Assembly: GCF_003633895.1 (NCBI RefSeq)
Contig: NZ_RBID01000005.1
Span: forward strand, 1-45,591
DNA: 45,591 nucleotides
Reading direction: 5' to 3'
Origin: Vogesella indigofera
Lineage (GTDB): Bacteria; Pseudomonadota; Gammaproteobacteria; Burkholderiales; Chromobacteriaceae
Numbering within the stretch: the stretch's first letter is position 1; each line of letters begins with the position of its first letter. A program made the position numbers and the translations under genes. The notes beneath the pieces were generated by a model. That model had not been told where the DNA came from. It was given only the letters and a program-made list of their open reading frames with translations, and ran no database searches. Shown piece by piece: positions 2,546 to 44,461 of the stretch.

Positions 2546-3808
2546 CTAGCGCACTACCGGCAACTCGTCCCAGCAGGTGGTCCAGCGCGGCGAGCGTTGC
2601 TCCTGCCGCATCCGCCAGTCCGCGCTGACCGCTTCCGACGCCAGTTTCAGCGTGCCGCTGCCATAGTGGCGGTTTACCTGATCCAGCGTTTGCAGCAAGG
2701 CGGCGCGCCGCGGATCGGTGCTGACGGCAAACAGGTCCGGCTGCCGCGCCTGGGCGGCGCCGATTTCCAGCAGCACCACGCCAGCCTTCTTGTAGCCGTA
2801 GCCGGGCTGGTAGATCGCCTCCAGTCCGACCAGTGCCGCCTTGACCAGCGCCAGCGTGTCGGCGGTGGGGCCAGGCAACGGCACCACCGTCCAACCGCGT
2901 TGCGCTGTCGCATCACCAAACGGGTTGCCACGGATGCTGACGCCGACCAGCTGCGCCACACTGTGCTGCTGGCGCAGCTTCTCGCCAACGCGGGTGGCGT
3001 GGTGGGTGATCGCCGCCGCCAGCGTGCACTTGTCGCTCACCATGCGCGCAAACGAGCGCGACGAGATCAGCTGCTGCCGTGGCGCGGCGATGTCGTCTAG
3101 TTCGAGACAGGACACGCCGTTGAGCTCGGCCACGGTGCGCTCCAGCACGACGCCGAAATGGCGCTGGATCAACGGCGGCGCGGCCCGCCGCAAGTCCAGC
3201 GCACTGTGGATGCCAAGACGGGCGAGCTTGTCCGCGCTGCGCCGGCCCACGCCCCAGACCCGGTTTGCGGCCAACCTTGCCAGCAGTTTTTCCTGCCAGT
3301 CGCGCGCAAGCCAGTCCCAGGCGAACACGCCGTTGCAGCGCGGATGGGTCTTGGCCACGCTGTTGGCCAGCTTGGCCAGCGTCTTGCTGCTGCCGATGCC
3401 GACACAGGTGGGAATGCCGACACGCTGCAACACGTCGGCGCGCAGGCGGGCCGCGTGATCGCGCAATTCGGGGATGCCGTCGAGTGTGATGAAGCTCTCG
3501 TCGATGGAGTAGATCTCCTGCGCCATGCCCCAGCGCGCCACGACCTGCATCATCCGTTGCGACATGTCGCCATACAGCGCGTAATTGCTGGAAAACACCG
3601 CCACGCCGTGACGGCGGCACTGCGCCGCGATCTGGTAGTACGGCACAAAAGCATCAATGCCGAGTGCCTTGGCCTCGGCCGAGCGCGCGACGACGCAGCC
3701 GTCGTTGTTGCTGAGCACGATGATGGGCTTGCCGGCCAGATCGGGTCGGAACACCCGCTCGCACGAGGTGTAGAAACTGTTGCCGTCGACCAGCGCAAAG
3801 GTGCTCAT
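2546..3808 (-). CDS. umuC: DNA polymerase V catalytic subunit UmuC
   Basis: 420 residues. Y-family polymerase that, with cleaved UmuD (UmuD'2) and RecA, carries out error-prone lesion bypass in the SOS response. The N terminus has [14 protein letters not shown] with metal-binding Asp8. The second catalytic motif is YSIDESF with Asp103-Glu104, two positions later than in E. coli UmuC. The [13 protein letters not shown] segment and a helix-hairpin-helix region follow, then the little-finger domain. The ATG at 3808 was chosen over an upstream GTG because it gives the standard N terminus and overlaps the umuD stop by four bases (ATGA), which indicates translational coupling. One copy of the repeated 14-mer described below lies inside the gene at 3266. 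Confidence 0.95.
3266..3279 (+). repeat. GCGGCCAACCTT-family repeat, exact TGCGGCCAACCTTG
   Basis: Exact copy of the 14-base motif, inside umuC and antisense to it. On the coding strand it encodes Arg-Leu-Ala-Ala within UmuC. See the first finding. Confidence 0.85.
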
Positions 3809-4227
3809 GTGAAGCGCTTGACGCAGGCGGTGACCACGCCCCAGATGCACAGCTCCTGCTCGCCACCCAGCTCCAGCGGCGCATAGGCGGCATTCTCCGC
3901 CAGCAGCGCCACGCGGCTATCGCGGCGGTGCAGACGCTTGACCGTGAACGCGCCGTCGATGGCGGCCAGCACGATGTGGCCGTGCTGCGGCGGCAGACCG
4001 CGATCGACCACCAGCAGGTCGCCGTGATGGATGCCGGCATCGGCCATGGAATCGCCGGCCACCCGCACCATGAACGAGGACGCCGCATCACGGATCAGGT
4101 AACGGTTGAGATCCAGCGAGCTGTCCCTGTAGTCGTCGGCCGGCGACGGGAAGCCGGCCGGCACGCTGGCGCCAAACAGCGGCACGCTCTGAGGCAGCGG
4201 CGTGGCGACAGGTAAATAAAGCTGCAT
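3805..4227 (-). CDS. umuD: SOS mutagenesis protease UmuD
   Basis: 140 residues. LexA-like S24 autopeptidase that cuts itself after RecA activation to give UmuD', the accessory subunit of DNA polymerase V. The self-cleavage site is Ala24-Gly25 (PAGFPSPA). The nucleophile Ser60 lies in [11 protein letters not shown] and the general base Lys97 in FTVKRL. These positions match Ser60 and Lys97 of E. coli UmuD, so the enzyme should be active. GGAGAG lies a few bases before the ATG at 4227. First gene of umuDC; stop and start overlap by four bases. I see no canonical CTGT-N8-ACAG LexA box upstream; a different palindrome is listed separately. Confidence 0.95.
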
Positions 4228-4249
4228 GCGAGCTCTCCGTAATCGATAT

Positions 4250-4271
4250 TTTGATTATGTACGATTTCAAA
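4250..4271. promoter_or_regulatory. AT-rich imperfect palindrome upstream of umuDC
   Basis: A 22-base imperfect palindrome centred on GTAC, with TTTGA at the left end and TCAAA at the right (7 of 11 positions match between arms). It lies 23-44 bases before umuD. On the minus strand a TTGCAG / 17-base / ATAATC promoter would overlap it. This placement suits a repressor operator for an SOS operon, but the sequence is not the usual LexA box, so the role is inference. Confidence 0.35.
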
Positions 4272-4364
4272 TAAACTGCAAAGCCTGCCATTGCCCTGCG
4301 TCTCCCCGCCTGCCCGGACAAGCCCGCCGCTGCGCCGGTATCACGCAGCCACCCCCTCCACGAC

Positions 4365-4378
4365 TGCGGCCAACCTTG
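4365..4378 (+). repeat. GCGGCCAACCTT-family repeat, exact TGCGGCCAACCTTG
   Basis: Exact copy in the gap between umuD and the next gene. See the first finding. Confidence 0.85.
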
Positions 4379-8414: not shown

Positions 8415-9305
8415 ATGAACGCCGCTTGGACCGCAACGCTGCAGCAGTTCGACCAGCAACTGCAGTTGGCCGCAAGGAGCGAGCACACGCGCGAGGCCTA
8501 CGCGCGCGATATCACCTATCTCGCCAGGCTGACCCGGCTGGAGCAGCCGGAACAGGTCAACACCCTCGCCGTACAGCGGGCACTGGCGCAGTTGCGCCAC
8601 CAGGGGCTGTCGCCGCGCTCGCTGGCGCGCATCCTGTCCAGCTGGCGCAACCTGTTCCACTGGATGATCCGGCAGGAGCACATTGCGGCCAACCCTTGCG
8701 CCGGCCTGCGTCCGCCGCGGGCACCGCAACGTCTGCCCAAGGCACTCAGCGTCGACGCCACCATGCAGCTACTGGACCAGCCCAGCGAGGGACGGTTGCA
8801 ATGGCGCGATCACGCCATGTTCGAGTTGATGTACTCCTCCGGCCTGCGCCTGAGCGAAACCACCTCGCTCAATGTCGCCGACCTCGACTTGTCACAACAG
8901 CTGGTCAAGGTCAGCGGCAAGGGCAAGCGCGAACGGCTGCTGCCGGTTGGGCGCAGTGCCGCCGACGCCCTGCGCCGCTGGCTGGAAGTACGCGGCAGCA
9001 CCCAGGATGACGCGCTGTTCGTGTCGGAACAGGGGACGCGACTGTCGTCGCGGCAGCTGGCACGGCGACTGGAAAAATGGCGGCAACAAAGCGACTGCGA
9101 GCAGCACGTGCATCCGCACATGCTGCGCCACTCGTTTGCCAGCCACATCCTGCAGTCGTCCGGCGACCTGCGCGCGGTGCAGGAAATGCTGGGCCACGCC
9201 AACCTGGCCACCACCCAGATCTACACCAGCCTCGACTTCCAGCATCTGGCCAAGGTCTACGATGGCGCCCACCCGCGCGCCAAGAAGACACCGGACAACT
9301 CGTAA
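8415..9305 (+). CDS. xerC: Tyrosine recombinase XerC
   Basis: 296 residues. Site-specific recombinase that, with XerD and FtsK, resolves chromosome dimers at dif. The N-terminal SAM-like domain (about 5-90) is followed by the catalytic domain. The catalytic set is complete: Arg in SSGLRLSE, Lys in SGKGKRERLLP, His-x-x-Arg in HPHMLRHSFASH, His in LGHANLATT and the Tyr nucleophile in TQIYTSLDFQHL. The end, DFQHLAKVYDGAHPRAKK, is the XerC type rather than XerD. The ATG is two bases after the moxR stop. No dif-like site is visible in this window. Confidence 0.93.
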   Translation: MNAAWTATLQQFDQQLQLAARSEHTREAYARDITYLARLTRLEQPEQVNTLAVQRALAQLRHQGLSPRSLARILSSWRNLFHWMIRQEHIAANPCAGLRPPRAPQRLPKALSVDATMQLLDQPSEGRLQWRDHAMFELMYSSGLRLSETTSLNVADLDLSQQLVKVSGKGKRERLLPVGRSAADALRRWLEVRGSTQDDALFVSEQGTRLSSRQLARRLEKWRQQSDCEQHVHPHMLRHSFASHILQSSGDLRAVQEMLGHANLATTQIYTSLDFQHLAKVYDGAHPRAKKTPDNS

Positions 9306-9315: not shown

Positions 9316-11505
9316 TCAGTACTGCGCGCCAAGGCTGAAATAGCCGGTCCACTGCCCGCCCTTGGCATTGCCGACGCCGACCGACCACGGCCCCAGCACG
9401 GTGTCGGCACCCAGGAACAACGTCATGCCCGGCAACCAGCTGCTATTGCGCTGATCCCATACCGTGCGCCACGCCTTGCCGGCCTCGAACGACACCCCGG
9501 CATACAGCCCGGAGCCGAGCGCCGACGGCAAGCCGGCAGCACGCCAGTACAGCATGCTGCGCAGCAAGGCGGTACGACTGGCCAGCAGCTCGCCCGGCTG
9601 ATAGCCGGACAGGTTGTTGAAGCCGCCCAGCGCGTAGACCATGCCGTCGCCGCGGCCAAAGGAGCCGTCAAACCGCGCGGTGGTGCGCAGCGTGACATCC
9701 CGCGGCAGCAGCTGCGCCGCGTCGAGGCGGATGCCGATGCTGTGATAGCGCTCATCGAGCGCCATGGTGTACGGTGCCGACAGCGAGAACTGGGCCGCCA
9801 TGCCCTGTCGCGGCCAACGTGGATTGTCCAGCTGGTCGTAGTTGAACAGCATCCGCACCCCGCGCGCACTCTCCCGCTCGCGCGCATCGTCGTAGACCGC
9901 CGCCCCGGTCTTCAGCCGCAGCGCGGTACGGCTCTGGTACACACCGAGCCGCAATTCGCCGAACTGGCGGAAATCCCAGCCCAGATCGGCATTGGCCTGC
10001 GTGGTGCCGAAGATGAAATCCGCCTCGCGCCGATGACCGGGCGAGTACAGCGAATACAGCCGGTCCTCGTAGCGCGCCGACAGGCTGGCGAACAGCTGGC
10101 TGTCGGTCGCCAGCGGCTGGTACCACTCGCTGCGCAGCATCGGCTCCTCGCCCAGCCGCAATTCGTTGAGCCACATACCGCCGGCCGCATTCAGCCAGCT
10201 GCGCTTGTGCTCACCCAGCAGGGCAAAACTGGCACGGCCATTGGTGGCGCTGCTCAGACTCAGGCCGGCACGCAGGTAATTGGGGCCGACAAAGCGCTCC
10301 TCCGCCGTCACCCGCGCCACATTCTGCCCCTGCTCGAACGCGGCGCGGTAGGACAGCCGCTCCAGGTCGCCATCGGCAAACACCTCGGTCAGGCGACGGT
10401 GAAAGGTTTCCAGCGGCAGCGCGGTGGTGGCGGCCGACAGCCGCTGCTGCAGTGCCTGCGGATCGACAAAGTCGAAATTGCCGGCCACCTCGACACGGTC
10501 GATGCGCGCCGACTGCGGCGCCCGCTGCGTCGCCTGCCAGGCGGCATAGTGCTCAGGCGGCAACGCGAACGGTGCCAGTTGCGCGGCGATGCCCTGCGCC
10601 GCGCGCCGGCCGGCTTCGACGATGTCGGCATTGCGCGCAAAATCCGCAGGAGAAAAGCCGTCCAGGGTTGGCCGCAACAGCAAGTCCTGCGGCCGTATCT
10701 TCGCCAGCTGCTCCTTGCTGTTGCGCGCCACCATCAGGTAGCTGGTCTGGTCCAGCACATTGATGAAGCTGCGCAGCTGCTCCGCCTTCAGCGGCGGGGT
10801 GCCGACATCGATCACCAGCAACACGTCGGCACAGCCGCCGAGCAGCTCTTCCACCGGCAGCTGCCGCGCCAGGCCGCCGTCCACCAGCAGCCGGCCGTCA
10901 TGCTCCACCACATCGAACAGCCCCGGCACCGCCATGCTGGCGCGCATCGCCAGGCTCAGGTCGCCACGGTCAAACACCACCGCATCGCCGCTTTCCAGGT
11001 CGGTGGCCACCGCGCGAAACGGGATCGACAAGCGGTCGAAGCTGGGCTCGTCGCGAGCGCGGGTCAGCTCGCGGATGAACAGGTCGATGGCCTGCGAATT
11101 GATCGCGCCGCGCGGAATGCGCAGCTCGCCGTCGCGCACACCAAAGGACAGATCAAAATAGTTGACCAGATCGCCCTGCTTGCGCAGGTAGGGCACGTCC
11201 TGCCGCGCCGGCTTGCCCGACAGCAGCACATCCCAGTCGGCGTGGCGAAACAGCCCGGCCATCTCGTCCAGCGCACGGCCGCTGGCGTAGGCGCCACCGA
11301 TCAGGGCGCCGGCACTGGTGCCCGCAATGCAGGCCACCGGTACCCGCAAGCGCTCCAGCTCCTGCAATACGCCCAAGTGGGCAAAACCGCGCGCGCCGCC
11401 ACCGCCAAGCACCACCCCCAGCCGCGGCGGAGTGGCGCTGGCGTGCGCCAGCAGCGGCAACAGCAGCAAGACGGCGGCCAGGCGCCAAAATCCGGAAAAA
11501 AGCAT
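9316..11505 (-). CDS. Patatin-like phospholipase with POTRA and outer-membrane barrel (type Vd, PlpD-like)
   Basis: 729 residues from the ATG at 11505; a GTG five codons upstream (11520) is the alternative. From the ATG a clear signal peptide runs to about residue 24 (VLLLLPLLAHASA). The patatin domain follows: oxyanion motif GGGGARG (34-40), nucleophile Ser64 in GTSAG and catalytic Asp209 in DGG. A single POTRA-like unit comes near residue 330 (IDRVEVAGNFDFVD), then a beta-rich BamA/TpsB-like barrel ending in an aromatic residue (FSLGAQY). This is the layout of type Vd secretion proteins such as PlpD, in which the barrel carries a lipase to the cell surface. The full catalytic dyad suggests activity; substrate unknown. 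One CCCTG-variant repeat lies inside at 10663. Confidence 0.9.
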   Translation of the reverse strand: MLFSGFWRLAAVLLLLPLLAHASATPPRLGVVLGGGGARGFAHLGVLQELERLRVPVACIAGTSAGALIGGAYASGRALDEMAGLFRHADWDVLLSGKPARQDVPYLRKQGDLVNYFDLSFGVRDGELRIPRGAINSQAIDLFIRELTRARDEPSFDRLSIPFRAVATDLESGDAVVFDRGDLSLAMRASMAVPGLFDVVEHDGRLLVDGGLARQLPVEELLGGCADVLLVIDVGTPPLKAEQLRSFINVLDQTSYLMVARNSKEQLAKIRPQDLLLRPTLDGFSPADFARNADIVEAGRRAAQGIAAQLAPFALPPEHYAAWQATQRAPQSARIDRVEVAGNFDFVDPQALQQRLSAATTALPLETFHRRLTEVFADGDLERLSYRAAFEQGQNVARVTAEERFVGPNYLRAGLSLSSATNGRASFALLGEHKRSWLNAAGGMWLNELRLGEEPMLRSEWYQPLATDSQLFASLSARYEDRLYSLYSPGHRREADFIFGTTQANADLGWDFRQFGELRLGVYQSRTALRLKTGAAVYDDARERESARGVRMLFNYDQLDNPRWPRQGMAAQFSLSAPYTMALDERYHSIGIRLDAAQLLPRDVTLRTTARFDGSFGRGDGMVYALGGFNNLSGYQPGELLASRTALLRSMLYWRAAGLPSALGSGLYAGVSFEAGKAWRTVWDQRNSSWLPGMTLFLGADTVLGPWSVGVGNAKGGQWTGYFSLGAQY
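10663..10676 (-). repeat. GCGGCCAACC repeat, CCCTG variant
   Basis: Minus strand reads TGCGGCCAACCCTG, one base from the main motif, inside the patatin gene. The same variant occurs at 26164 and 39393. Confidence 0.6.
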
Positions 11506-14480: not shown

Positions 14481-15366
14481 AAACCTTGTCGGCTGGATGA
14501 CCGCCACCCAGCAATACGTCGAAAACGCACTGGAAGCGGCCCTGCCGGACGAACAGCGCGCTCCGCAGCAGCTGCACCAGGCGATGCGTTACAGCACGCT
14601 GCAGGGCGGCAAGCGCGTGCGCCCGCTGCTGGCGTTTGCCGCCGGCGAGCTGGTTGCCGCCGATGCGGCCAACCTTGCCCGCGTCGCCTGTGCCGTGGAA
14701 ATGATCCACGCCTACTCGCTGGTACACGACGACATGCCGTGCATGGACGACGATGTGCTGCGCCGCGGCAAGCCGACCTGTCACGTCGCCTACGACGAGG
14801 CCACCGCGCTCTTGGTCGGCGACGCCTTGCAGACGCTGGCCTTTGAACTGCTCAGCCGGCCGATGTCCGATGTCGCCCCGCAGCAGCAACTGGCCATGGT
14901 GAGCACCCTCGCCACCGCCTCCGGCCACGCCGGCATGGCTGGCGGCCAGGCCATCGACCTCGCCAGCGTTGGCCGCAGCCTGAACCAGACCGAGCTGGAG
15001 TTCATGCACTGCATGAAAACCGGCGCCCTGATCCGCGCCGCGGTGCTGCTGGGCGCCATGTGCGGCCAACCTTTGAGCGCCGAGCAGACCGACAGCCTCG
15101 ATCATTTCGCCAAGCGCATGGGGCTGGCCTTCCAGGTGGTCGACGACGTGCTGGATGTCGAAGCCGACACCGCCACCCTCGGCAAGACCGCCGGCAAGGA
15201 CGAGGCCAACGACAAGCCGACCTACGTCAGCCTGATGGGCCTGCAGGAAGCCAAGCAATTTGCCCGCGAACTCTACAACGACGCGCTGGCCGCGCTGGCA
15301 CCGTTTGGTGACAAGGCGGCGCGTCTGAAACAGCTGGCCGACTACATCGTCGCCCGCTCGTTCTGA
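14470..15366 (+). CDS. ispA: Farnesyl diphosphate synthase
   Basis: 298 residues. Condenses isopentenyl diphosphate with dimethylallyl and geranyl diphosphate to give farnesyl diphosphate, the precursor of quinone side chains and undecaprenyl phosphate. The first aspartate-rich motif is in HDDMPCMDDDVLRRGKPT (about residues 83-100), GGQAIDLAS lies mid-protein, and the second motif is VDDVLDVEADTATLGKTAGKD. The ATG at 14470 lies inside the xseB end (11-base overlap), so translation is coupled. Two repeat-motif copies (14664 and 15061) lie inside, in different reading frames. Confidence 0.96.
   Translation: MSNENLVGWMTATQQYVENALEAALPDEQRAPQQLHQAMRYSTLQGGKRVRPLLAFAAGELVAADAANLARVACAVEMIHAYSLVHDDMPCMDDDVLRRGKPTCHVAYDEATALLVGDALQTLAFELLSRPMSDVAPQQQLAMVSTLATASGHAGMAGGQAIDLASVGRSLNQTELEFMHCMKTGALIRAAVLLGAMCGQPLSAEQTDSLDHFAKRMGLAFQVVDDVLDVEADTATLGKTAGKDEANDKPTYVSLMGLQEAKQFARELYNDALAALAPFGDKAARLKQLADYIVARSF
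14664..14677 (+). repeat. GCGGCCAACCTT-family repeat, exact TGCGGCCAACCTTG
   Basis: Exact copy inside ispA, read there as Ala-Ala-Asn-Leu. Confidence 0.85.
15061..15074 (+). repeat. GCGGCCAACCTT-family repeat, TGCGGCCAACCTTT
   Basis: Thirteen of fourteen bases match. It lies inside ispA in another frame from the copy at 14664, read as Cys-Gly-Gln-Pro-Leu. Confidence 0.8.
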
Positions 15367-15390
15367 ACGACAACACAACACAACAACAAT

Positions 15391-17244
15391 ATGACCACAC
15401 TGCTCGACACCATCCACAGCCCGGCGGACCTGCGCCAGCTGAAACGCAGCGACCTGCCGCAGCTTGCGCGCGAGCTGCGCGAATTCATCGTCGAATCGGT
15501 GAGCAAGACCGGCGGCCACTTCGCCTCCAACCTCGGCAGCGTGGAGCTGACCGTCGCACTGCACTACGTGTTCAACACCCCGGACGACCGTCTGGTGTGG
15601 GACGTCGGCCACCAGACCTATCCGCACAAGATCCTCACCGGCCGCCGCGAGCGCATGGGCAGCATGCGCCAGCAAGGCGGCCTTGCCGGCTTTCCCAAGC
15701 GTGACGAATCCGAGTACGACACCTTCGGTGTTGGCCACTCCTCGACCTCGATCGGCGCCGCGCTGGGCATGGCGGTCGCGGCACAGCTACAGGGCATCGA
15801 GCGCCACTGCGTCGCCATCATCGGCGACGGTTCGATGACCGCCGGCCAGGCGTTCGAGGCGCTGAACAACGCCGGCGCGATGGACACCAACCTGCTGGTG
15901 ATCCTCAACGACAACGACATGTCGATCTCGCCCAATGTCGGCGCGCTCAACAACTACCTGGCCAAGATCATGTCCGGCCGCTTCTATGCCGCCGTGCGCC
16001 AGGGCTCCAACAAGGTGCTGGGCGGCATCGCCCCGCCGCTGCGCGACATCGCCAGCAAGGTGGAAGAACACGTGAAGGGCTTTTTCACCCCCGGCACGCT
16101 GTTCGAGGAGTTCGGCTTCAACTACATCGGCCCGATCGACGGCCACGATGTCGACGTGCTGACCGACACCCTCCACAACATCAAGAGCCTGAAAGGCCCG
16201 CAGTTCCTGCACATCGTCACCAAGAAGGGCCAGGGCTACAAGCTGGCCGAGAACGACCCGGTGAAATACCACGGCGTGACCAAGTTCGACCCGGCCAACG
16301 GCCTGGTCGGCAGCAAGAGCGGCGGCAAGCCGCAGTACACCCAGGTGTTCGGCGACTGGATCTGCGACATGGCCAAGCTCGATTCGCGCCTGGTCGGCAT
16401 CACCCCGGCGATGCGCGAAGGCTCCGGCCTGGTACGGTTCGAGCAGGAATATCCGCAGCGCTACTTCGACGTTGCCATTGCCGAGCAGCACGCGGTGACC
16501 TTTGCCGCCGGCCTCGCCTGTGACGGTCTGAAGCCGGTGGTGGCGATCTACTCCACCTTCCTGCAGCGCGCCTACGACCAGCTGATCCACGACGTGGCAC
16601 TGCAAAACCTGCCGGTGGTGTTCGCCATCGACCGCGCCGGTCTGGTCGGCGCCGACGGCCCGACCCACGCCGGCTCCTTCGACCTGTCCTTCCTGCGCTG
16701 CATCCCCAACATGACGGTGATGGCGCCCTCCGACGAGAACGAGTGCCGCCAGATGCTGTACACCGCGTTCACGCTGGACGGCCCGAGCGCGGTGCGCTAC
16801 CCGCGCGGCACCGGCCCCGGCGCCGCCATCGTGCACGAGATGTCGGCGCTGCCGATCGGCAAGGGCCACATCCGCCGCCAGGGTCAGGGCAAGGTGGCCA
16901 TCCTTGCCTTCGGCAGCATGGTGACGCCGGCGCTGCAGGCGGCCGAGGCGTTCGACGCCACCGTCGCCGACATGCGCTTCGTCAAGCCACTGGACGCGGA
17001 GCTGGTGAAACAGCTGGCCGCCAGCCACGAGCTGATCGTCACCGTGGAGGAAAACGCGATCATGGGTGGTGCCGGCAGTGCCTGTGGCGAAGTACTGGCT
17101 GCGGCCAACGTGCAGGTGCCGCTGCTGCATCTGGGCCTGCCCGACGACTACGTCGAGCACGGCGACCCCGCCATGCTGCTGGCCGGCTGCGGCCTCGACG
17201 CCGCCGGCATCGAAGCCAGCATCGCCGCCCGTCTGGGGCGCTAA
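15391..17244 (+). CDS. dxs: 1-deoxy-D-xylulose-5-phosphate synthase
   Basis: 617 residues, full length. Thiamine-diphosphate enzyme that joins pyruvate and glyceraldehyde 3-phosphate, the first step of the MEP isoprenoid pathway; it feeds IspA encoded just upstream. [16 protein letters not shown] and [14 protein letters not shown] mark the N-terminal domain. [18 protein letters not shown] is the ThDP/Mg site and [14 protein letters not shown] carries the conserved Glu. The C-terminal transketolase domain is complete. The start at 15391 gives the standard [17 protein letters not shown] end. The 24 bases before it are CA-repeats without a Shine-Dalgarno sequence, which is unusual for a core gene. 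Confidence 0.97.
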
Positions 17245-19841: not shown

Positions 19842-20158
19842 GCGCCTGCCCTATCACCCCGCCACGCCCGCCAGCGCACAGCGCTGACGTTTTTATTGAC
19901 CGAGACCGGTCCGCGGCCACACGGGTGGCCGGCCGGCACTGGCACTGATCGCGGGGCGCACCGCCTCGCTTGCGGCCAACCTTGTCCGGCCCCGCAAGCC
20001 CGGCCCCGCAAGCCCGGCCTCCCACCCGAACCATCACCGCGCGCCGATGCCGTCGCCATCCGGCTTTTCCTGCCGGCGCCGCAGTCTCGCCTTTCTGTGA
20101 CACCGGCCTTGGCACTATAAAGAACTGCCAACCCGTTCCCCGTCACAAGGAGCGCCTC
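19842..20158. other. Gap between tdk and the formate operon
   Basis: 317 bases without a credible gene. It holds one exact repeat-motif copy (19971-19984). Just after it, about 19987-20016, a 14-base unit like CCCCGCAAGCCCGG is present twice in tandem. AAGGAG lies ten bases before the fdsB-like ATG. I see no clear terminator after tdk and no convincing promoter. Confidence 0.5.
19971..19984 (+). repeat. GCGGCCAACCTT-family repeat, exact TGCGGCCAACCTTG
   Basis: Exact intergenic copy. The flanks (GCT before, TC after) are the same as at 25199. Confidence 0.85.
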
Positions 20159-30400: not shown

Positions 30401-31388
30401 AGTCCAGCTCGCCCGCCAGTCGCGGCAAGGGCAGATCGCGCCGCTGCAGTGCCAGCGACACGTCATCCACCTGCCAGCGGCCCTGCAGCGCGGTGATGCG
30501 GCCTTCGGCAAACGCAGCCGTCAGCCGCGAGCTGGCGCGCCCCTGACCGGCAAACGGCGCCGTCGGCCAGTAGCGCTTGAGCAGCGACAGCTCGCCGCTG
30601 CCGGCCGCCAGCGTCAGTTCGCCCTGCCATTGCCGCCAGTCGGCAACGGCACCGCCCTGCCAGCCGGCGTCCAGCAACAGCCCCGGCAGCAGCGGGCTGT
30701 CCGGCCGGCCGTGCAGTTGCAGGCGATGGCCGCGCCAATTGTCCTGCAGCTGCAGGGTCAGCCCTTCCAGCCGCAGCACCGGCAAGGCCAGCAACTGGTC
30801 GTGCCAGCTCAGCTGTTTCAGGCTCAGCGTGATGCTGTCCTGGCGCAGCAGCCAGTCCAGCAGCCGGTTGTCGCCCTTGCCGCCGGACAGCGCGATGCCG
30901 TTCAGGCTCAGCCGTCCCTGGCGGTCGCGCTGCAGCGCCAGCTGCAAATCGTCCAGCTGCAGGCTGGCCAGCCGCGGTTCGAGATAGAGCCAGCTTTTCC
31001 ACGCCGGAATCATCTCCACCCGCGACAGGCGGATGGCGCTGGCGCGCGACACTGGCCGCACCTGCACGTCGCGCAGGGTCAGCACCGGCGCCCACCACAG
31101 CCACTCGCCATCAATGCGGCCAACCTTGATCGCCATGCCGCTGGCGTCGCCCAGCGATTGTTCCAGGTACGGACGCAAGCGATCCAGATTCGGCAGCAGG
31201 ATGAAACGGAAACTCAGAAAGGAAACGGCCAGCAGCAGCAGTACCGCGGCCAGTAACCAGGCAGCGGCACGCAGGATGCGACGGGCAGTCCGCAGGATGC
31301 GCCAGCTGCGGTCAGGCGGCGTTACATCGGACGGGGAAGTGGGGGTAGAATGGTCAGTCACGATTTCGTCATAGCGTTGAAAGCGCAT
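27483..31388 (-). CDS. yhdP: YhdP-family AsmA-like envelope protein (DUF3971)
   Basis: About 1300 residues. A single N-terminal membrane helix (WLLAAVLLLLAVSFLSFRFILLPNL, about residues 43-67) anchors a very large periplasmic region of repeated beta-strand units (RLEGLTLQLQDNWRG, GRLTATQRRDDVMQFAVQGDAAI). It ends with an AsmA-type C terminus (VNPLLGAATLLTQKILQDPINQVFSFEYQISGSLTDP). In E. coli YhdP and its relatives TamB and YdbH form bridges that carry phospholipid to the outer membrane. The start is uncertain: ATG 31388, or a GTG at 31361. Either way the 5' end almost touches divergent glnE. Three repeat-motif copies lie inside. Confidence 0.9.
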   Translation of the reverse strand: MRFQRYDEIVTDHSTPTSPSDVTPPDRSWRILRTARRILRAAAWLLAAVLLLLAVSFLSFRFILLPNLDRLRPYLEQSLGDASGMAIKVGRIDGEWLWWAPVLTLRDVQVRPVSRASAIRLSRVEMIPAWKSWLYLEPRLASLQLDDLQLALQRDRQGRLSLNGIALSGGKGDNRLLDWLLRQDSITLSLKQLSWHDQLLALPVLRLEGLTLQLQDNWRGHRLQLHGRPDSPLLPGLLLDAGWQGGAVADWRQWQGELTLAAGSGELSLLKRYWPTAPFAGQGRASSRLTAAFAEGRITALQGRWQVDDVSLALQRRDLPLPRLAGELDYRSAAAGEHQLQASHLTLSGEFGPLLRDATVDAKWHEQRGGRVQLSGVSLAGLWPVLQQRITALRELPLTALDGELRNTSWQWQGPWRAPRDYRLSTAFRQLRPTLSTSPTVQGGVNGELKLARDGGELSLSGQGLTLAWPQQLAEPLALQQLAGQLRWQRQGQGWQFTLPALRLQTPDLKAELSGDGRLPAQGALQGRLDIRVPQVAVARVSRYLPAVIGRSTLDWLDMALVGGTARNVTARVEGDFSRFPFGNDAGGRFDVDAEVAGGVLRFDRAWPDITAIDGKFAMRNDHVLVDAATARTAGVALQAVKVRLPDLMTQPAHLLIDGQARGALPQMLAYTRSSPVDGWLGGFLSTIDSQGEAALKLGLDIPLSALLQSKVRGEVSLPGNSLQFRQLPLPPLQAVRGVLQFNERGVSSPGIGFAAFGGQGRLTATQRRDDVMQFAVQGDAAITPVLQRYVPLLSPLVSGRTPYQANFDISNNLDDLQLLLSLRGVAIQAPAPLAKPADAEWPLQLRLRPTLEGWQLAWQQQERAQGTVTLDSHGNLRGVGVGVGTEVPASPQQIGIAIRQPQLDLLPWLGVVQQLGTVISTGGGTAEGAGLPLQLQLATPLLQLASYRLHDVDSRLDWRGGDAPLQLQLDSREAAGQLRYRAADGGRVQAELSRLTLPLPEDSAAVAAGGSSAGTLLADVSVPALELAVAQLFWEQHQLGQLTLLAQPRGEQWQLDKVTLQMPEGRMQVTGVAPREGSRQPQTRVDVAFDTENAGGVLTRFGIADALYGGRGRLDGQLTWPGRLHDFELARLGGQLRLDVRDGRFAQVNPGVARLLGILSLQSLSRRIRLDFTDVFSTGFAFDAITGSAVVRDGVFASDDVRMTGPAALVTLRGEADLPRNQQNVRARITPHISESVSLLAGATLVNPLLGAATLLTQKILQDPINQVFSFEYQISGSLTDPQVSKVGENVTPVPPAKTP
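28833..28846 (-). repeat. GCGGCCAACCTT-family repeat, exact TGCGGCCAACCTTG
   Basis: Exact copy inside yhdP in the sense direction, read as Leu-Arg-Pro-Thr-Leu. Confidence 0.85.
30084..30097 (-). repeat. GCGGCCAACCTT-family repeat, exact TGCGGCCAACCTTG
   Basis: Exact copy inside yhdP in the sense direction, read as Leu-Arg-Pro-Thr-Leu. It shares the extension GAGC with the copy at 44065. Confidence 0.85.
31115..31128 (+). repeat. GCGGCCAACCTT-family repeat, exact TGCGGCCAACCTTG
   Basis: Exact copy inside yhdP, antisense to it; the coding strand reads Lys-Val-Gly-Arg. Confidence 0.85.
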
Positions 31389-31389
31389 T

Positions 31390-34056
31390 ATGCCAGCAAA
31401 TACCGCCGCCATCGCCTCTGCGCGCGCATTCAGTTATTACCTCGACCGCCTGCTGGGCGCCCGTCCCGAACAATTCGAAAGGTTGGCCGCCAGGCTGGAT
31501 CACTGTTTTGACTTGGCGGAGATGACGGCGTTCGCCGACTGGCTGGCTTTCGACAGCATCGACACGCTGATGCCGGCGCTGCGCCAGCTGCGCGCCGCGG
31601 TGATGGCACGGCTGATCACCCGCGACCACGCCGGCCTAGCCGACCTGCACGAAGTCGTCACCACCATCAGCGCGCTGGCCGATTTTGCCGTGCAGCAGGC
31701 ATTGCCGGTGGCACGGCGCAGCCTGGCGCAGTTCGGCGACCCGATCGGCGAGGAAAGCGGCGAGGTGCAGCAGCTGATCGTGATCGGTATGGGCAAGCTC
31801 GGCGGCTTCGAACTGAACGTGTCCTCCGACATCGACCTGATCTTCATCTATCCGGAAGACGGCGACACCAACGGTCAGCGCAGGACCTCCAACCACGAAT
31901 ACTTCACCCGTCTCGGCAAGGAGCTGATCCGCGCCATCAACGACCTCACCTACGACGGCCAGGTGTTCCGCGTCGACATGCGCCTGCGCCCGTACGGCGA
32001 CTCCGGTCCATTGGTGATGAGTCTGGCGGGGCTGGAAAACTACCTGTTGAGCCAGGGCCGCGAGTGGGAACGCTACGCCTGGATCAAGGCACGGGTGATG
32101 ACCGGCGACGACAGCTATCTGTCGCAGCTGGTGCGCCCCTTCGTATACCGCAAGTACATGGACTACGGTGCCTACGGCGCGATGCGCGAGCTGCACGCGC
32201 AGATCCGCCGCGAGGTGGCGCGCCGCGACATGGCGGAAAACATCAAGCTGGGGCCGGGCGGCATTCGCGAGGTGGAATTCATCGCCCAGGTGTTCCAGCT
32301 GATCCGCGGCGGCCGCGAGCGCCGCCTGCAACTGCGCAGCACCCGCGACACCTACGCCGTGCTGGCCGAATTGCGCCTGCTGGAGCCGGAAACGGTCAGC
32401 GAACTGCTGGAGGCGTATACCTTCCTGCGCAATCTGGAACACCGGCTGCAGTACCTCGACGACCAGCAGACGCAAAACCTGCCGACCAGCGAGGACAACC
32501 GGCAGCGTATCGCCGCCAGCATGGGCTTTGCCGACTGGCACGGCTTCCTCGACGCGCTCAACCAGCACCGCCGCCGCGTCACCCGCCACTTCGAACAGGT
32601 GTTCTTCCTGCCGACCGAAGGCGCCGCCGCGCATCCGCTGCAGGCGCTGTGGCAGGAGCTGGCCGACAACGACATCAGCGCCACGCTGCAGCAGCTGGGC
32701 TATCACGACGCCGCCGACGTGCAGCGCCAGCTGCGCAGCCTCGCCGCCAGCCAGCGCTACCAGCAGATGCCGGACAGCAGCCGCAAGAAGCTGGACGCAC
32801 TGATCCCGCCGCTGATCGAGGTCGCCGCCGGTTTCGACAACCCGGACCTGACGCTGTCGCGCATCCTGACCTTGCTAGAAAGCATCAGCCGCCGCGCCTC
32901 CTACCTGTCGCTGCTGCAGGAGTATCCGCAGACGCTGCAGCGGCTGGCGTCGCTGTACTCGGCCAGCGCCTGGGTATCGGCCTACCTCAACCGCCATCCG
33001 ATCCTGCTCGACGAGCTGCTGGATGCGCGCGTGCTATACGCCAGCCCGGACTGGCCTCAGCTGGCGGCGCAGCTGGAACAGCAGCTGGCCGACTGCCAGG
33101 GCGACGTCGAGGTGCAGATGGACACCCTGCGCCACTTCCAGCACGCGCAGACCTTCCGCCTGGTGGCGCAGGATCTGGCCGGGATGTGGACACTGGAAGC
33201 ATTGTCCGACGAACTGTCGGCACTGGCCGACATGGTGCTGGACGCCACGCTGCGCCACGCCTGGCTGGACCTGCCCAAGCGCCACTGCGAGGTGCCGCGC
33301 TTCAGCATCATCGGTTACGGCAAGCTGGGCGGCAAGGAACTGGGCTACGCCTCCGACCTCGACGTGATCTTCCTCTACGACGATGACCACCCGGACGCCG
33401 CCGAGCTGTACTCGCGGCTGGCACGCAAGCTGACCACCTGGCTGACCAGCGTCACCGCCGCCGGCTCGCTGTACGACATCGACCTGCGCCTGCGCCCCAA
33501 CGGCACCAGCGGCCTCCTGGTCAGCAGCGTCGACGCCTTCCGCCAGTACCAGCAGAAGGATGCCTGGCTGTGGGAGCACCAGGCGCTGACCCGCGCCCGC
33601 TTTGTCTGCGGCGACGCGGCGATCGGCCAGCAATTCGAGGCCATCCGCCATCAGGTGCTGACCCTGCCGCGCGACATCGGCCAGCTGCGCGACGAGGTGC
33701 TGGCGATGCGCGCCAAGATGCTGGAAAGCCATCCGGCCCGCGACGGCGACGTCAAGCATGCGCGCGGCGGCATCGTCGATGTCGAGTTCATCACCCAGTT
33801 CCTGATCCTGGCGCACGCCAGCCAGTACCCGGAGCTGACCCGCAACAGCGGCAACATCGCCCTGCTCGGCGCTGCGGCCAACGTTGGCCTGATTCCGGCC
33901 GAGCTGGCCAATCAGGGGCAGAGCGCCTATCGCCACTACCGGCGACTGCAGCACGCGGCGCGGCTCAACGACAGCCAGACCACCGACGACATCCCGCAGG
34001 AAGACTACCGCCATGCGCGGGCGCTGTGGCAGTGCGCACTGCAGGATGAAGCTTGA
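31390..34056 (+). CDS. glnE: Bifunctional glutamine synthetase adenylyltransferase/adenylyl-removing enzyme
   Basis: 888 residues. Adds and removes AMP on glutamine synthetase in response to PII and glutamine, setting nitrogen assimilation. Two nucleotidyltransferase halves are complete: the N-terminal removase has MGKLGGFELNVSSDIDLIFIYPE (Asp pair) and VDMRLRPYGDSGPLVMS. The C-terminal adenylylase has YGKLGGKELGYASDLDVIFLYDDD and IDLRLRPNGTSGLLVSS. A helical PII-linker lies between and after. Slightly shorter than the E. coli protein, mostly at the N terminus. ATG 31390 faces yhdP with almost no gap. One 12-base repeat core lies inside. Confidence 0.95.
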   Translation: MPANTAAIASARAFSYYLDRLLGARPEQFERLAARLDHCFDLAEMTAFADWLAFDSIDTLMPALRQLRAAVMARLITRDHAGLADLHEVVTTISALADFAVQQALPVARRSLAQFGDPIGEESGEVQQLIVIGMGKLGGFELNVSSDIDLIFIYPEDGDTNGQRRTSNHEYFTRLGKELIRAINDLTYDGQVFRVDMRLRPYGDSGPLVMSLAGLENYLLSQGREWERYAWIKARVMTGDDSYLSQLVRPFVYRKYMDYGAYGAMRELHAQIRREVARRDMAENIKLGPGGIREVEFIAQVFQLIRGGRERRLQLRSTRDTYAVLAELRLLEPETVSELLEAYTFLRNLEHRLQYLDDQQTQNLPTSEDNRQRIAASMGFADWHGFLDALNQHRRRVTRHFEQVFFLPTEGAAAHPLQALWQELADNDISATLQQLGYHDAADVQRQLRSLAASQRYQQMPDSSRKKLDALIPPLIEVAAGFDNPDLTLSRILTLLESISRRASYLSLLQEYPQTLQRLASLYSASAWVSAYLNRHPILLDELLDARVLYASPDWPQLAAQLEQQLADCQGDVEVQMDTLRHFQHAQTFRLVAQDLAGMWTLEALSDELSALADMVLDATLRHAWLDLPKRHCEVPRFSIIGYGKLGGKELGYASDLDVIFLYDDDHPDAAELYSRLARKLTTWLTSVTAAGSLYDIDLRLRPNGTSGLLVSSVDAFRQYQQKDAWLWEHQALTRARFVCGDAAIGQQFEAIRHQVLTLPRDIGQLRDEVLAMRAKMLESHPARDGDVKHARGGIVDVEFITQFLILAHASQYPELTRNSGNIALLGAAANVGLIPAELANQGQSAYRHYRRLQHAARLNDSQTTDDIPQEDYRHARALWQCALQDEA
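31478..31491 (-). repeat. GCGGCCAACCTT-family repeat, 12-base core
   Basis: Minus strand reads GGCGGCCAACCTTT, with the GCGGCCAACCTT core intact, inside glnE; the coding strand reads Arg-Leu-Ala-Ala. Confidence 0.7.
33873..33886 (+). repeat. GCGGCCAAC repeat, CGTTG variant
   Basis: TGCGGCCAACGTTG, one base from the main motif, inside glnE. Could be a diverged copy or chance. Confidence 0.45.
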
Positions 34057-36412: not shown

Positions 36413-36993
36413 TGAGCAAAGAAAACGCCACCGAAGACAACAGCCGCCGCATGGAACTGGTGCGCGCCGCCGCCCGCCTGTTCCGCGACCAGGGCTACGA
36501 GCGCACCACCGTGCGCGACCTGGGCAATGCCGTCGGCCTGCAATCCGGCAGCCTGTTCTACCACTTCCGCACCAAGGAAGAGATCCTGGTGGCGGTCATG
36601 GCGCTGGGCATCACCGCAACCACCGAACAGTTGGCCGCAGCGCTGTCCCGCGCCAAGACGCCGCGCGAAAAGCTGGCGGCACTGTTCCACGTCCATCTGC
36701 ACTCGCTGCTCGGTGACAACCAGGCCGCGCTGGAAGTGATGCTCTACGAATGGCGCAGCGTCTCCGCCGCCGCCAAGCCCGGCCTGATCGTGCTGCGCGA
36801 CCGCTACGAGGCCTTGTGGCAGGATGCACTGGATGAAGCCGCCGCCGCCGGACTGGTCAAGCCGGATACCCGCCTGCTGCGCCGCACCCTGCTGGGCAGC
36901 CTGCACTGGACGGTACAGTGGTATCACGGCAACGGCGAACTCTCCGTCGCCGAACTTGCCGACCGCATGCTGGAGCTGACCGTCATCGCCTGA
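36412..36993 (+). CDS. TetR-family transcriptional regulator
   Basis: 193 residues from the ATG at 36412; the longer upstream frame is a waaF shadow. The N-terminal HTH is standard: RRMELVRAAARLFRDQGYERTTVRDLGNAVGLQSGSLFYHFRTKEEILVAVM. The C-terminal domain has the TetR_C all-helical pattern (HLHSLLGDNQAALEVMLYEWRSV). Similar to the YezE/AcrR-like group; the ligand is unknown. It overlaps waaF by one base and is expected to be cotranscribed. Targets unknown. Confidence 0.93.
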   Translation: MSKENATEDNSRRMELVRAAARLFRDQGYERTTVRDLGNAVGLQSGSLFYHFRTKEEILVAVMALGITATTEQLAAALSRAKTPREKLAALFHVHLHSLLGDNQAALEVMLYEWRSVSAAAKPGLIVLRDRYEALWQDALDEAAAAGLVKPDTRLLRRTLLGSLHWTVQWYHGNGELSVAELADRMLELTVIA

Positions 36994-39318: not shown

Positions 39319-39936
39319 TTGAAGTCGCTCAAGGAGCAACTTAAGCCAGTCAAAGCACAGGCAAGACCCGCGAGGGTCTTGCCTGTTGCCGTTGCGGCCA
39401 ACCCTGAACCCGAGCCGGACTTCCGCCAGCTGATGCGGGACGTGCGCCCGCTCAAGCAGGATGGCCGCGTCTGCTACACCCCGCCACTACCCAAGCCACG
39501 TCCCCTGCCGCAACATCGCGCCAGCCAGACACCCCTGACGCCGCAAGCGGAGCAGGCGCTGTTCGCCCAGATGATAGGCTGGTTCGAACCGGCACAGATC
39601 GACAGCCAGCACCGCAGTCCCGGCACGCCGAGCAACACCCTGAAGAAACTGCGCGCCGGGCACTGGCCGGTCTGTGCCGAGCTGGACCTGCACGGGCTGG
39701 ACCGCTTTGCCGCGCATGAACAGCTGACCGTATTCCTGCATCGCGCCCGCCACCTGGGCCAATGCGTGCGGGTGATTCACGGCAAGGGACTCAGCTCGCC
39801 GGGCGAACCGGTGCTGCCGAAGATGGTCAGAGCCTGGCTCAGCCACCACCCGGATGTACTGGCTTTCTGCGAAACCCGCATCGAACAAGGCGGCAGTGGT
39901 GCGGTACTGGCCCTGCTGCGCCGCCCGCACGGCTAA
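39319..39936 (+). CDS. Smr-domain protein
   Basis: 205 residues if the TTG at 39319 starts it. The C-terminal Smr domain is clear: AELDLHGLDRFAAHEQLTVFLHRARHLGQCVRVIHGKGLSSPG, with the Leu-Asp-Leu-His-Gly and His-Gly-Lys-Gly motifs of Smr nucleases (SmrB cleaves mRNA at collided ribosomes in E. coli). PDFRQLMRDVRPLKQDGRV matches the N-terminal part of SmrB proteins. No Shine-Dalgarno sequence precedes the TTG. A perfect hairpin lies inside the first 25 codons, so a start at the in-frame TTG at 39379 is possible. A CCCTG-variant repeat is at 39393. Confidence 0.88.
   Translation: MKSLKEQLKPVKAQARPARVLPVAVAANPEPEPDFRQLMRDVRPLKQDGRVCYTPPLPKPRPLPQHRASQTPLTPQAEQALFAQMIGWFEPAQIDSQHRSPGTPSNTLKKLRAGHWPVCAELDLHGLDRFAAHEQLTVFLHRARHLGQCVRVIHGKGLSSPGEPVLPKMVRAWLSHHPDVLAFCETRIEQGGSGAVLALLRRPHG
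39357..39386 (+). terminator. Perfect 13-base hairpin in the 5' end of the Smr gene
   Basis: ACAGGCAAGACCC pairs with GGGTCTTGCCTGT, loop GCGA. It lies 50 bases after the trxB stop with no T-tract. It may be a trxB terminator or attenuator, or it may hide the Smr ribosome site. Confidence 0.5.
39393..39406 (+). repeat. GCGGCCAACC repeat, CCCTG variant
   Basis: TGCGGCCAACCCTG in the early Smr gene. Third copy of this variant. Confidence 0.6.
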
Positions 39937-42652: not shown

Positions 42653-42653
42653 C

Positions 42654-42689
42654 AAAAAGGTTGGCCGCATTGCTGCGGCCAACCTTTTT
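42654..42689. terminator. Terminator built from two facing copies of the repeated motif
   Basis: AAAAAGGTTGGCCGCA at 42654-42669 and its exact complement at 42674-42689 with a four-base TTGC loop. Each arm carries the motif TGCGGCCAACCTTT, on the minus strand (42656-42669) and plus strand (42674-42687). It starts one base after the hydrolase stop and ends in five Ts. It serves as a bidirectional terminator between this gene and the converging GNAT gene. Confidence 0.93.
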
Positions 42690-42731
42690 CGCTTCCCGAT
42701 ACCCCTTCAGAAAAACAGCCTACCCACCCGC

Positions 42732-43232
42732 TCAGGCATACAGCAATTTGAGCGCTTGCGCCTCGCCGAAGAACAGCTCGCCCTCGTGACGCAGGCCGAT
42801 CGCCTCTAGCACCCGGATCGAGCCTGCGTTGGCCGCATCGACAATGGCGGTGATGCGTGGCAGGCGCAACACATTGCGCCCGTAGTCGAGGCTGGCTTGC
42901 GCCGCTTCGCGTGCGTAGCCCTGGCCGCGATATGGCGGCAGGAAGGTGTAACCAACATCCGGATCCGGCAGCCCCTCGCGGCGGATGATGCCGCACAAGC
43001 CCATCAGCGCACCATCGGACCTGCGCACCACGCACCACAACGCATGGCCATGCTGCGCGTAGGCCGCTAGCGGCCCTTCCTGCAGGTAGCGACGGGCGTC
43101 GTCCAGCGTGCGCACACCGCGATCGATCACCTTGCGCACGAAGTCGGGGTCGTTCAGTGCCGCCAGCACGAATTCGGCATCCTCCAGCGTCAGCTCGCGC
43201 AGCTGCAGCCGCGCCGTCTCCGCGATCAGCAT
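42732..43232 (-). CDS. GNAT-family N-acetyltransferase (RimJ-like)
   Basis: 166 residues from the ATG at 43232. RLQLRELTLEDAEFVLAALNDPDFV is the start of the RimJ/RimL-type domain. The acetyl-CoA pyrophosphate loop is LPPYRGQGYAREAAQASL (Gln/Arg-x-x-Gly-x-Gly/Ala pattern), and VDAANAGSIRVLEAIGLRHEGEL is the last helix. The acceptor may be a protein N terminus or a small amine. The start overlaps the M24 peptidase stop by seven bases. A longer frame upstream is only the antisense of that gene. Confidence 0.92.
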   Translation of the reverse strand: MLIAETARLQLRELTLEDAEFVLAALNDPDFVRKVIDRGVRTLDDARRYLQEGPLAAYAQHGHALWCVVRRSDGALMGLCGIIRREGLPDPDVGYTFLPPYRGQGYAREAAQASLDYGRNVLRLPRITAIVDAANAGSIRVLEAIGLRHEGELFFGEAQALKLLYA

Positions 43233-44461
43233 GCAACCGCCAGGCCGAACGGATCGTCGATGCTGTGGCTGGGCTGGGTAAACCAGCGCGGCCCCTGCTC
43301 CGTCATGTAGAAGTGATCCTCCAGCCGCACGCCGAACTCGCCGGGAATGCAGATCATCGGCTCGTTGCTGAAGCACATGCCGACTTCCAGTGGCGTGCGG
43401 TCGCTGGACACCAGGTACGGCCATTCGTGAATATCCATGCCGATACCGTGGCCGGTACGGTGCGGCAAACCCGGCAGTGCGTAGCCGGGGCCGAAGCCGT
43501 CAGCCTGCAATTGCCGGCGCGCGGCCAGATCGACCTCGCCGCACGGCGTGCCCAGCTGCGCCGCCGCGAAGGCCGCCGCCTGTGCCGCCTTTTCCGCCTG
43601 CCACACCTCGCGCTGGCGCGCATCCGGCTCGCCAAACACATAGGTACGGGTGATGTCGGAAATATAGCCGTGCAGGGTGCAGCCGGTATCGATCAGCACC
43701 ATGTCGCCCTGCTTCAGCACCTGCGGATTCTTGACCCCGTGCGGATAGGCGGTCGCCTCACCGAACAGCACGATGCAGAAGTAAGAACCGGTGGCACCGA
43801 CACGACGGTGTGCCTCGGCGATGAACGCTTCGACCTCGGTGGTGGAGATGCCCTCATGCAGGATGCCGGCCGTGGCCTGGTGCACCGCCAGTGTCATGTC
43901 CTTGGCACGCTGCATCAGCGCGATTTCCTGCGGCGACTTGCGCATGCGGCAGTGCGCGGTCACCTCGCGGCCGTTGACCAGCTGGTAGCCGTCGGTACAC
44001 TGGCGGATGCCGTCGGCGATGAAAAACGCCGCACTTTCGTCGATGCCGATGCGCGGCGGCTGCTCAAGGTTGGCCGCAATGCCCAACCGCGCCAGCGTCG
44101 CCACAAACAGTGCATACGGGCTTTCGTGTTCGTGCCAGGCGTTCACCTCGCCCTGCAGCTGCATGTAGTCGTGTAGCGTGCCGACCTCGAACCAGGGCGC
44201 GATGAATTCCAGCGCGCCATGCGCCGGCAGGATCGCCCCCACCATGCGCTCGCTGGCATACCATTTCAGGCCGGTAAAGTAGTTAAGGCTGGTACCGGCG
44301 TTCAGATACAGCGCCGCGATGCCGTTGGCCTGCATATACGCCTGCGCCTTGGCCAGCCGTACACGGTATTCGTCCAGCCCGATCGGCTGCGCACCCTGTG
44401 TCATGTCCTGCAAGCCAGCCAGCGCCTGCTCCTTGCTCACCCCACCCACGCCTATCGTCAT
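43226..44461 (-). CDS. M24-family metallopeptidase (Xaa-Pro peptidase)
   Basis: 411 residues from the ATG at 44461, which has GGGAGC upstream; another ATG at 44509 gives 427 residues. The N-terminal creatinase-like domain precedes the pita-bread domain. The five dinuclear-metal ligands are present: Asp in LIDTGC, Asp in SDITRTYVF, His in HRTGHGIGMDIHE, Glu in SNEPMI and Glu in RLEDHF. Releases N-terminal residues before Pro or acts on dipeptides. It is divergent from the XRE-cupin regulator across a palindrome, so it is a plausible target. One exact repeat copy lies inside at 44065. Confidence 0.93.
   Translation of the reverse strand: MTIGVGGVSKEQALAGLQDMTQGAQPIGLDEYRVRLAKAQAYMQANGIAALYLNAGTSLNYFTGLKWYASERMVGAILPAHGALEFIAPWFEVGTLHDYMQLQGEVNAWHEHESPYALFVATLARLGIAANLEQPPRIGIDESAAFFIADGIRQCTDGYQLVNGREVTAHCRMRKSPQEIALMQRAKDMTLAVHQATAGILHEGISTTEVEAFIAEAHRRVGATGSYFCIVLFGEATAYPHGVKNPQVLKQGDMVLIDTGCTLHGYISDITRTYVFGEPDARQREVWQAEKAAQAAAFAAAQLGTPCGEVDLAARRQLQADGFGPGYALPGLPHRTGHGIGMDIHEWPYLVSSDRTPLEVGMCFSNEPMICIPGEFGVRLEDHFYMTEQGPRWFTQPSHSIDDPFGLAVAC
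44065..44078 (-). repeat. GCGGCCAACCTT-family repeat, exact TGCGGCCAACCTTG
   Basis: Exact copy inside the M24 peptidase gene in the sense direction, read as Ala-Ala-Asn-Leu. Confidence 0.85.

Follow-up and report, generated by a model that had tools for sequence, protein, structure and literature searches.

What is the function of a 12-base word, GCGGCCAACCTT, that recurs 14 times in 45,591 nucleotides of DNA from Vogesella indigofera? The stretch in question (positions 1 to 45,591 of contig NZ_RBID01000005.1, the whole of which is referred to here as the window) had been examined in a sequence-only reading, which took the word to be a lineage-specific DNA uptake signal or another genome-wide tag. 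Our analysis of the window, the whole genome and related genomes indicates that TGCGGCCAAC(C/G)TT is very probably the DNA uptake sequence (DUS) of Vogesella, and the TG dialect of a DUS family of the Chromobacteriaceae with the core CGGCCAAC. The uptake interpretation is strongly supported at the level of sequence; the signal is broader than the lineage-specific one proposed, the word being one dialect of a set that is found in several genera.

All 14 copies of the 12-mer, nine on the plus and five on the minus strand, are present where they had been placed, the earlier coordinates being those of the first base of a 14-base span in which the 12-mer begins one base further on. Nine of the 14 are exact as TGCGGCCAACCTTG, as had been claimed, and the hand estimate of about 0.01 copies by chance agrees with the expectation of 0.01 obtained by shuffling, where none of 100 shuffles reached 14. 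The GC content had been put at about 64% and is measured at 65.4%. The abundance is genome-wide and not a cluster confined to the window: the whole 3.62-Mb genome contains 1,050 copies of the 12-mer (515 forward, 535 reverse), with none of its reversed control, and 2,057 copies of the core 10-mer TGCGGCCAAC (1017 plus, 1040 minus), with nine of the control. With counts far above expectation, copies beyond the window and even strands, the outcomes named in advance as refuting an uptake role did not occur, and the mixed orientation reported from the window is borne out. An apparent strand bias among the places first listed arose from the listing itself: 400 kb contain 38 forward and 57 reverse copies, and the whole-genome counts are even.

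In 445.6 kb of the genome (the window together with 400 kb of contig C1), TGCGGCCAAC is the strongest over-represented 10-mer, with 221 copies where an order-5 Markov model predicts 10.9. Both TGCGGCCAACCT (113 copies against 1.4) and TGCGGCCAACGT (59 against 0.6) are over-represented as well, from which the tail was read as [C/G]T; the full tail, [C/G]TT[G/T], is softer than the core. The 10-mer exceeds the model 20-fold and the 12-mer 47-fold. In a logo built from 109 copies of the 12-mer, the signal reaches no further than two bases beyond it on the 5' side and one base on the 3' side, a span of about 15 bases. The best-supported core is thus the 10-mer, and the 12-mer is its commonest extended form in the window, where the core has 26 copies with all three reading frames represented. 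On average, a copy of the motif is met about every 1.8 kb, on one strand or the other. Its copies in the window are the following, with the 12-mers listed first and then the cores TGCGGCCAAC followed by another tail.

3267..3278, plus strand: 12-mer, antisense in an impB/mucB/samB-family gene (2546-3850, minus; PF00817)
4366..4377, plus strand: 12-mer, host gene not assigned; the open reading frame (ORF) 4291-5178 is without a Pfam match
14665..14676, plus strand: 12-mer, sense in a polyprenyl synthetase gene (14410-15366, plus; PF00348); core intact in 11 of 12 other Vogesella
15062..15073, plus strand: 12-mer, sense in the same polyprenyl synthetase gene
18896..18907, plus strand: 12-mer, antisense in a thioesterase-family gene (18731-19252, minus; PF13279); core intact in 10 of 12 other Vogesella
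19972..19983, plus strand: 12-mer, at the 5' end of a Complex1_51K-type ORF (19970-21592, plus; PF01512), coding or upstream
25200..25211, plus strand: 12-mer, intergenic between a formate/nitrite transporter gene (24253-25080, plus) and a PmbA/TldD gene (25213-26868, minus)
28834..28845, minus strand: 12-mer, sense in the YhdP gene (27483-31412, minus; PF13116)
30085..30096, minus strand: 12-mer, sense in the YhdP gene
31116..31127, plus strand: 12-mer, antisense in the YhdP gene
31479..31490, minus strand: 12-mer, antisense in the GlnE gene (31390-34056, plus; PF03710), without the 5' T of the core
42657..42668, minus strand: 12-mer, forming the left arm of an inverted pair; the convergent gap in which the pair lies separates an abhydrolase gene (ends 42652, plus) from a GNAT acetyltransferase gene (42732-43424, minus)
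42675..42686, plus strand: 12-mer, forming the right arm of that pair, which reads on into TTTTT in the manner of a terminator
44066..44077, minus strand: 12-mer, sense in an M24 peptidase gene (43226-44509, minus; PF00557)
8465..8474, minus strand: core, other tail
8684..8693, plus strand: core, other tail
10667..10676, minus strand: core, other tail
14968..14977, minus strand: core, other tail
17100..17109, plus strand: core, other tail
21050..21059, minus strand: core, other tail
24726..24735, minus strand: core, other tail
25492..25501, minus strand: core, other tail
26164..26173, plus strand: core, other tail
33873..33882, plus strand: core, other tail
36630..36639, minus strand: core, other tail
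39393..39402, plus strand: core, other tail
42828..42837, minus strand: core, other tail

The description of copies in genes as well as in gaps is upheld by this list. Nine of the 14 12-mers lie inside Pfam-supported genes (impB/mucB/samB, polyprenyl synthetase with two, thioesterase, YhdP with three, GlnE and M24 peptidase), and three are intergenic, one at the transporter-PmbA/TldD gap and two as the inverted pair at 42657-42686; the copies at 4366 and 19972 were placed in neither group. Since the genic copies run both in the sense (five of nine) and in the antisense direction (four of nine), peptide repetition is no explanation for them. For the polyprenyl synthetase gene, a gene-caller frame at 14464-15738 was rejected in favor of 14410-15366 on the plus strand, which Pfam backs. 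The inverted pair folds as a 16-bp stem (42654-42689, -26.9 kcal/mol, the one stem folded) that runs into TTTTT; a terminator scan did not list the pair, and the stem came from folding. In the 445.6 kb there are 25 inverted site pairs no more than 30 bases apart, counting any of four 5' spellings, and eight of these are the perfect palindrome TGCGGCCAACGTTGGCCGCA. The window also contains a 158-bp element (18577-18734) with 21-nt terminal inverted repeats that are 90% complementary, resembling a miniature inverted-repeat transposable element (MITE) or a Correia element. At least about 20 further copies of it, at about 76-94% identity, are found in each of the V. indigofera genome and genomes G003, G005, G011, G012 and G001.

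A comparison across 120 genomes (V. indigofera, 12 other Vogesella, 48 others of the family and 59 others of the order) shows how the word is distributed. The 12-mer is abundant solely in Vogesella, with 485-1,050 copies in all 13 genomes and at most nine elsewhere, and the core TGCGGCCAAC has 1,871-2,895 copies in all 13 against 4-14 for controls. As the core is high throughout the genus, the twofold spread of the 12-mer counts reflects the tail. Variant spellings emerged without prior choice as the top 10-mer in four of eight 100-kb samples from sister genera: TTCGGCCAAC leads in three genera, with 28, 46 and 76 copies against about one, and CTCGGCCAAC in one, with 66 against 2.3. The samples from g6 (G030), g7, g8 and g9 gave no word of comparable strength, the best among them being ACGCGAACCA in g9 (12 copies against 0.2), whose 12-mers look tandem. 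Counted genome-wide, TTCGGCCAACCT (the TT dialect) has 68-610 copies in eight genomes (three of g2, two of g3 and one each of g5, g6 and g10) and at most 22 elsewhere. For CTCGGCCAACCT (the CT dialect), the two genomes of g4 give 428 and 731 copies, G023 gives 27, and no other genome exceeds nine. One of the three counted words is at high copy in 23 of the 61 family genomes, leaving 38 without, and none of the 59 other genomes of the order carries any of them abundantly (0-2, 0-3 and 0-5 copies).

Vogesella and several sister genera share a dialect family with the core CGGCCAAC, in which Vogesella has the TG dialect. The dialects are congruent with the genera except that only one of ten g6 genomes has the motif and that G023 mixes 144 TT with 27 CT copies. 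When 84,980 public species genomes were scanned for one paired form, narrow enough that other carriers may escape it, the 20 stretches found all belonged to Vogesella, Crenobacter, Gulbenkiania, Paludibacterium or records that bear just the name Neisseriaceae or betaproteobacterium. In 11 genomes behind these loci, the four-spelling 12-mer YKCGGCCAACCT has 449-1,161 copies against 0-3 for controls; five of the 11 were already in the family counts, namely V. margarita (G003), V. alkaliphila (G005), P. denitrificans (G021), C. luteus (G015) and JH1-16 (G014).

Several genomes depart locally from their dialect. The 144 TT and 27 CT copies of G023 compare with 610 TT copies in its genus-mate G014, and its dialects may be eroding or mixed. 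In G024, which has the CT dialect, eight of 22 TT copies fall within 7 kb (C1:1158709-1165793), which may be an import from a TT relative or a local repeat. Foreign-dialect clusters or inverted pairs were also noted at G015:C5:33141-39420, G051:C30:42697-42737, G054:C1:482721-482746 and G034:C17:49021-49052. Such clusters in genomes of another dialect, or of none, are possible traces of DNA transfer between genera.

The sites are also shared between species, as had been suggested for checking. For 14 sites of the core within a 15.5-kb part of the window, with a site coverage that varies by species, the whole 10-mer was kept in 45 of 53 cases in four species at about 94-95% identity, against 287 of 529 neighboring control 10-mers. 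In eight species at about 78% identity the figures are 30 of 78 against 113 of 780. Whole-site retention thus exceeds that of controls in close and in distant species, and sites tend to be retained whole or lost. Over 400 kb, where the mean core spacing is 2.0 kb, the largest site-free gap spans 26.2 kb at a GC content of 0.552 (0.635 for the region), and the five proteins scanned in it include transposase, TniQ and Mu-type transposase families; as a survey for scarcity of sites in acquired DNA, this amounts to one mobile-element gap in 400 kb.

A comP-like pilin had been named as something to look for, and structure and profile matches support the presence of a ComP-type pilin in V. indigofera. 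Its gene (locus L104, contig C11:90300-98300; positions 3858-4286 of the locus, minus strand) adjoins a 3-dehydroquinate synthase gene, and the product possesses both a prepilin signature and a ComP-type globular domain. In a structure search with this protein, the top-scoring rows are other pilins matched over the N-terminal helix only, while the globular part matches the solved ComP structures 2nba, 2m3k and 5hz7 (42, 33 and 31 bits). A profile of 15 orthologues ranks the same three first (78, 71 and 69 bits), and the type IV pilin 5v0m reaches 37 bits over the same region. NCBIfam matches the orthologue at the pilin N-terminus only (TIGR02532). The Pfam family ComP_DUS (PF16732), tried as a marker, is not diagnostic: in a set of 61 genomes, made up of 37 from the family and 24 from other families, 55 match it, and motif-free genomes are among these. 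Two V. indigofera pilins pass it, L003 with 71 bits and L004, the ComP orthologue, with 46.5 bits. L003 was rejected as ComP, being a PilE-like pilin of a minor-pilin operon whose structure matches include P. aeruginosa PilE (4noa) and no ComP. The surroundings of comP vary by lineage, with the 3-dehydroquinate synthase gene in V. indigofera and minor-pilin-like genes in g4 (locus L117, G024).

Across the family, a ComP-level match (E <=1e-27) was found in 57 of 61 genomes, the four g9 genomes reaching just 1e-17 to 1e-19. ComP sequences were read in 54 of the 61, leaving out the four g9 genomes, G055, G059 and G040. In G040, a motif-free g8 genome, the best ComP match (C1:465054-465458) holds one in-frame TGA. 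This stop and the lack of a ComP-level match in g9 may point to a receptor that is decaying in genomes without the motif. A signature, NxDxGx[YF] (pattern N[TVA]Dx[GD]x[YF]), which was written post hoc from the sequences and is counted over related genomes that are not independent, is present in 22 of 23 motif-bearing and in none of 31 motif-free genomes. The residue that follows NxDxG is Y in all 13 TG genomes and E in eight of the nine TT or CT genomes with the signature. On the ComP tree, the motif label requires three changes against a mean of 17.7 for shuffled labels. In genus g6, the signature is found in the sole motif-bearing genome, G017, and is absent in the nine others. The G017 ComP has a long branch and groups with those of the other g6 genomes at 94/85 support, which falls short of the program's star; the motif would then have been lost in the others or gained in G017. 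ComEC was found in 11 of 13 Vogesella, V. indigofera included.

Massive over-representation, lack of strand bias, coding and intergenic copies, inverted pairs, genus dialects and whole-site retention, which are features of the DUS functional class, were found. We infer that these bacteria are competent and that the motif, in double-stranded DNA outside the cell, is bound by a minor pilin of the ComP family that belongs to the type IV pilus. Retraction of the pilus would then import tagged over untagged DNA, and ComEC would carry the imported DNA into the cell for recombination. Import biased in this way would spread the motif and keep it at its sites, which could lead to the spacing of roughly 1.8 kb seen over the two strands, and some inverted pairs may double as terminators.

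Other explanations for the copies were weighed against this one. Chance, codon usage or a repeated peptide might be suspected because GCG GCC AAC CTT encodes Ala-Ala-Asn-Leu, which is plausible in GC-rich genes, but with copies that point either way, use each of the three frames and also lie in intergenic DNA, a reversed control at zero, the 20-fold and 47-fold excess over the order-5 Markov model and at most nine copies of the 12-mer in sister genera, the probability of this is negligible. Membership in a dispersed mobile repeat, whether a MITE, a repetitive extragenic palindromic (REP) or a Correia-like element, has in its favor that the 158-bp element shows such repeats to be real in the window; it is nonetheless very improbable, as the logo stops sharply after about 15 bases with no common flanks and the copies lie inside conserved genes at orthologous sites. 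The site of a chromosomal protein, such as a nucleoid, segregation or terminator factor or a recombination hotspot such as Chi, would equally fit the high copy number, the locations in core genes and the terminator-like stems that some pairs form. However, Chi and the FtsK orienting polar sequences (KOPS) are uneven between strands and the strands are even here; the 5' letters vary by genus around a constant core, as in DUS dialects; the presence of the motif tracks a signature in an extracellular pilin; and the motif is missing from one mobile-element island. We consider such a site improbable.

It is also conceivable, though rather unlikely, that the uptake tag is real and that its receptor is another pilin, either a GspH/FimT-type neighbor of comP or the PilE-like L003, with ComP as a bystander. 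In Vogesella, a short gene for a pilin-like product shares its sequence with the beginning of comP where the two overlap; its V. alkaliphila copy barely passes Pfam GspH while the V. indigofera copy has no match. FimT is reported to mediate DNA uptake elsewhere (PMC8897410), and ComP is retained in motif-free genomes. On the other side stands the correlation of ComP with motif presence, ComP being the sole pilin compared.

The DUS interpretation with ComP as receptor has points against it too. Orthologues of ComP occur in motif-free genomes, and ComP alone thus does not predict the motif; the Paludibacterium genome G021 has the motif and lacks the signature, which itself carries the post hoc origin and non-independent counts mentioned above. 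ComEC likewise occurs in motif-free genomes and has no match in two of 13 Vogesella. Per-column identity of the sites in the eight distant species (0.70-0.81) is not higher than that of the flanks (0.76-0.80), and the next three site-free gaps, likewise of lower GC, contained no mobile family among the four proteins scanned. Two departures from Neisseria described below, in the core of the motif and in the disulphides of ComP, also count against it.

Selective uptake of self-tagged DNA is described as characteristic of the Neisseriaceae and Pasteurellaceae in PMC4906244, and how ComP reads the DUS is called unresolved in PMC12061091. The Chromobacteriaceae probably have a DUS language of their own, unrelated in sequence to that of the Neisseriaceae, with the core CGGCCAAC and the dialects TG, TT and CT, whose reader is a ComP without the DD disulphide. 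This language may predate the split of the genera and may have disappeared on several occasions, the receptor and the motif changing in step. In that case, the specificity of ComP has been rewired wholesale between two sister families, providing natural material on how a pilin reads DNA, and three dialects along with a split into motif-bearing and motif-free genomes inside one genus make up a comparative set for mapping specificity residues. From such a language it can further be predicted between which of these bacteria DNA is exchanged, and its words could be used as tags to transform Vogesella, Gulbenkiania, Crenobacter and Paludibacterium.

The uptake signal sequence (USS) of the Pasteurellaceae is AAGTGCGGT. 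The motif described here shares with it the logic of an uptake tag and the genome-wide copies, but is unrelated in sequence: AAGTGCGGT has one copy, and ACAAGCGGT, given in PMC3630211, three copies in the 445.6 kb. The Neisseriaceae have eight DUS dialects, all with CTG (Frye et al. 2013, PMC3630211), which is located at +6 to +8 and accompanied by A at +10 in every dialect (PMC3630211). Unlike these, the core CGGCCAAC and its complement lack CTG, and the motif is therefore not a member of the Neisseriaceae DUS sequence family. In the 445.6 kb, GCCGTCTGAA has no copies and six Neisseriaceae 10-mers have 0-10, consistent with the earlier statement that the word is neither the Neisseria DUS nor the Haemophilus USS. 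PMC3630211 reports no obvious DUS in five genomes (Laribacter, Lutiella, Pseudogulbenkiania and two Chromobacterium), and the motif-bearing genera lie outside those five. Among the titles and abstract openings listed from the open-licence literature, none concerned the motif or a DUS in these genera, and the letter-string matches were unrelated among the matches listed; the available part of PMC10715097 does not treat these genera, and the main text of PMC12061091, as far as available, does not mention Chromobacter or Vogesella.

The ComP of the family shows a similar mixture of likeness and difference. A second disulphide, C76-C125 in N. meningitidis, pins the DD region according to the accessible parts of PMC4906244 and PMC12061091. 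A Neisseria-type ComP (G103) has four cysteine columns, and in all 54 family orthologues read two of these are empty and two are filled; the DD-region disulphide described in PMC4906244 is thus missing throughout, and NxDxGx[YF] is absent from G103, the sole Neisseria-type ComP compared. Like the DUS receptor pilin of the solved structures (2M3K, 2NBA, 5HZ7), the family ComP has the orthologous globular domain with its C-terminal disulphide pair conserved. Also, like the Neisseriaceae DUS (AT-DUS ATGCCGTCTGAA and its dialects), the motif is an abundant 10-12-mer with dialects differing in a few letters, dyad pairs in some genomes and a minor pilin of the ComP family alongside. If the reading proposed here is true, the Chromobacteriaceae would be a third family with uptake tags, with a different core and an orthologous receptor.

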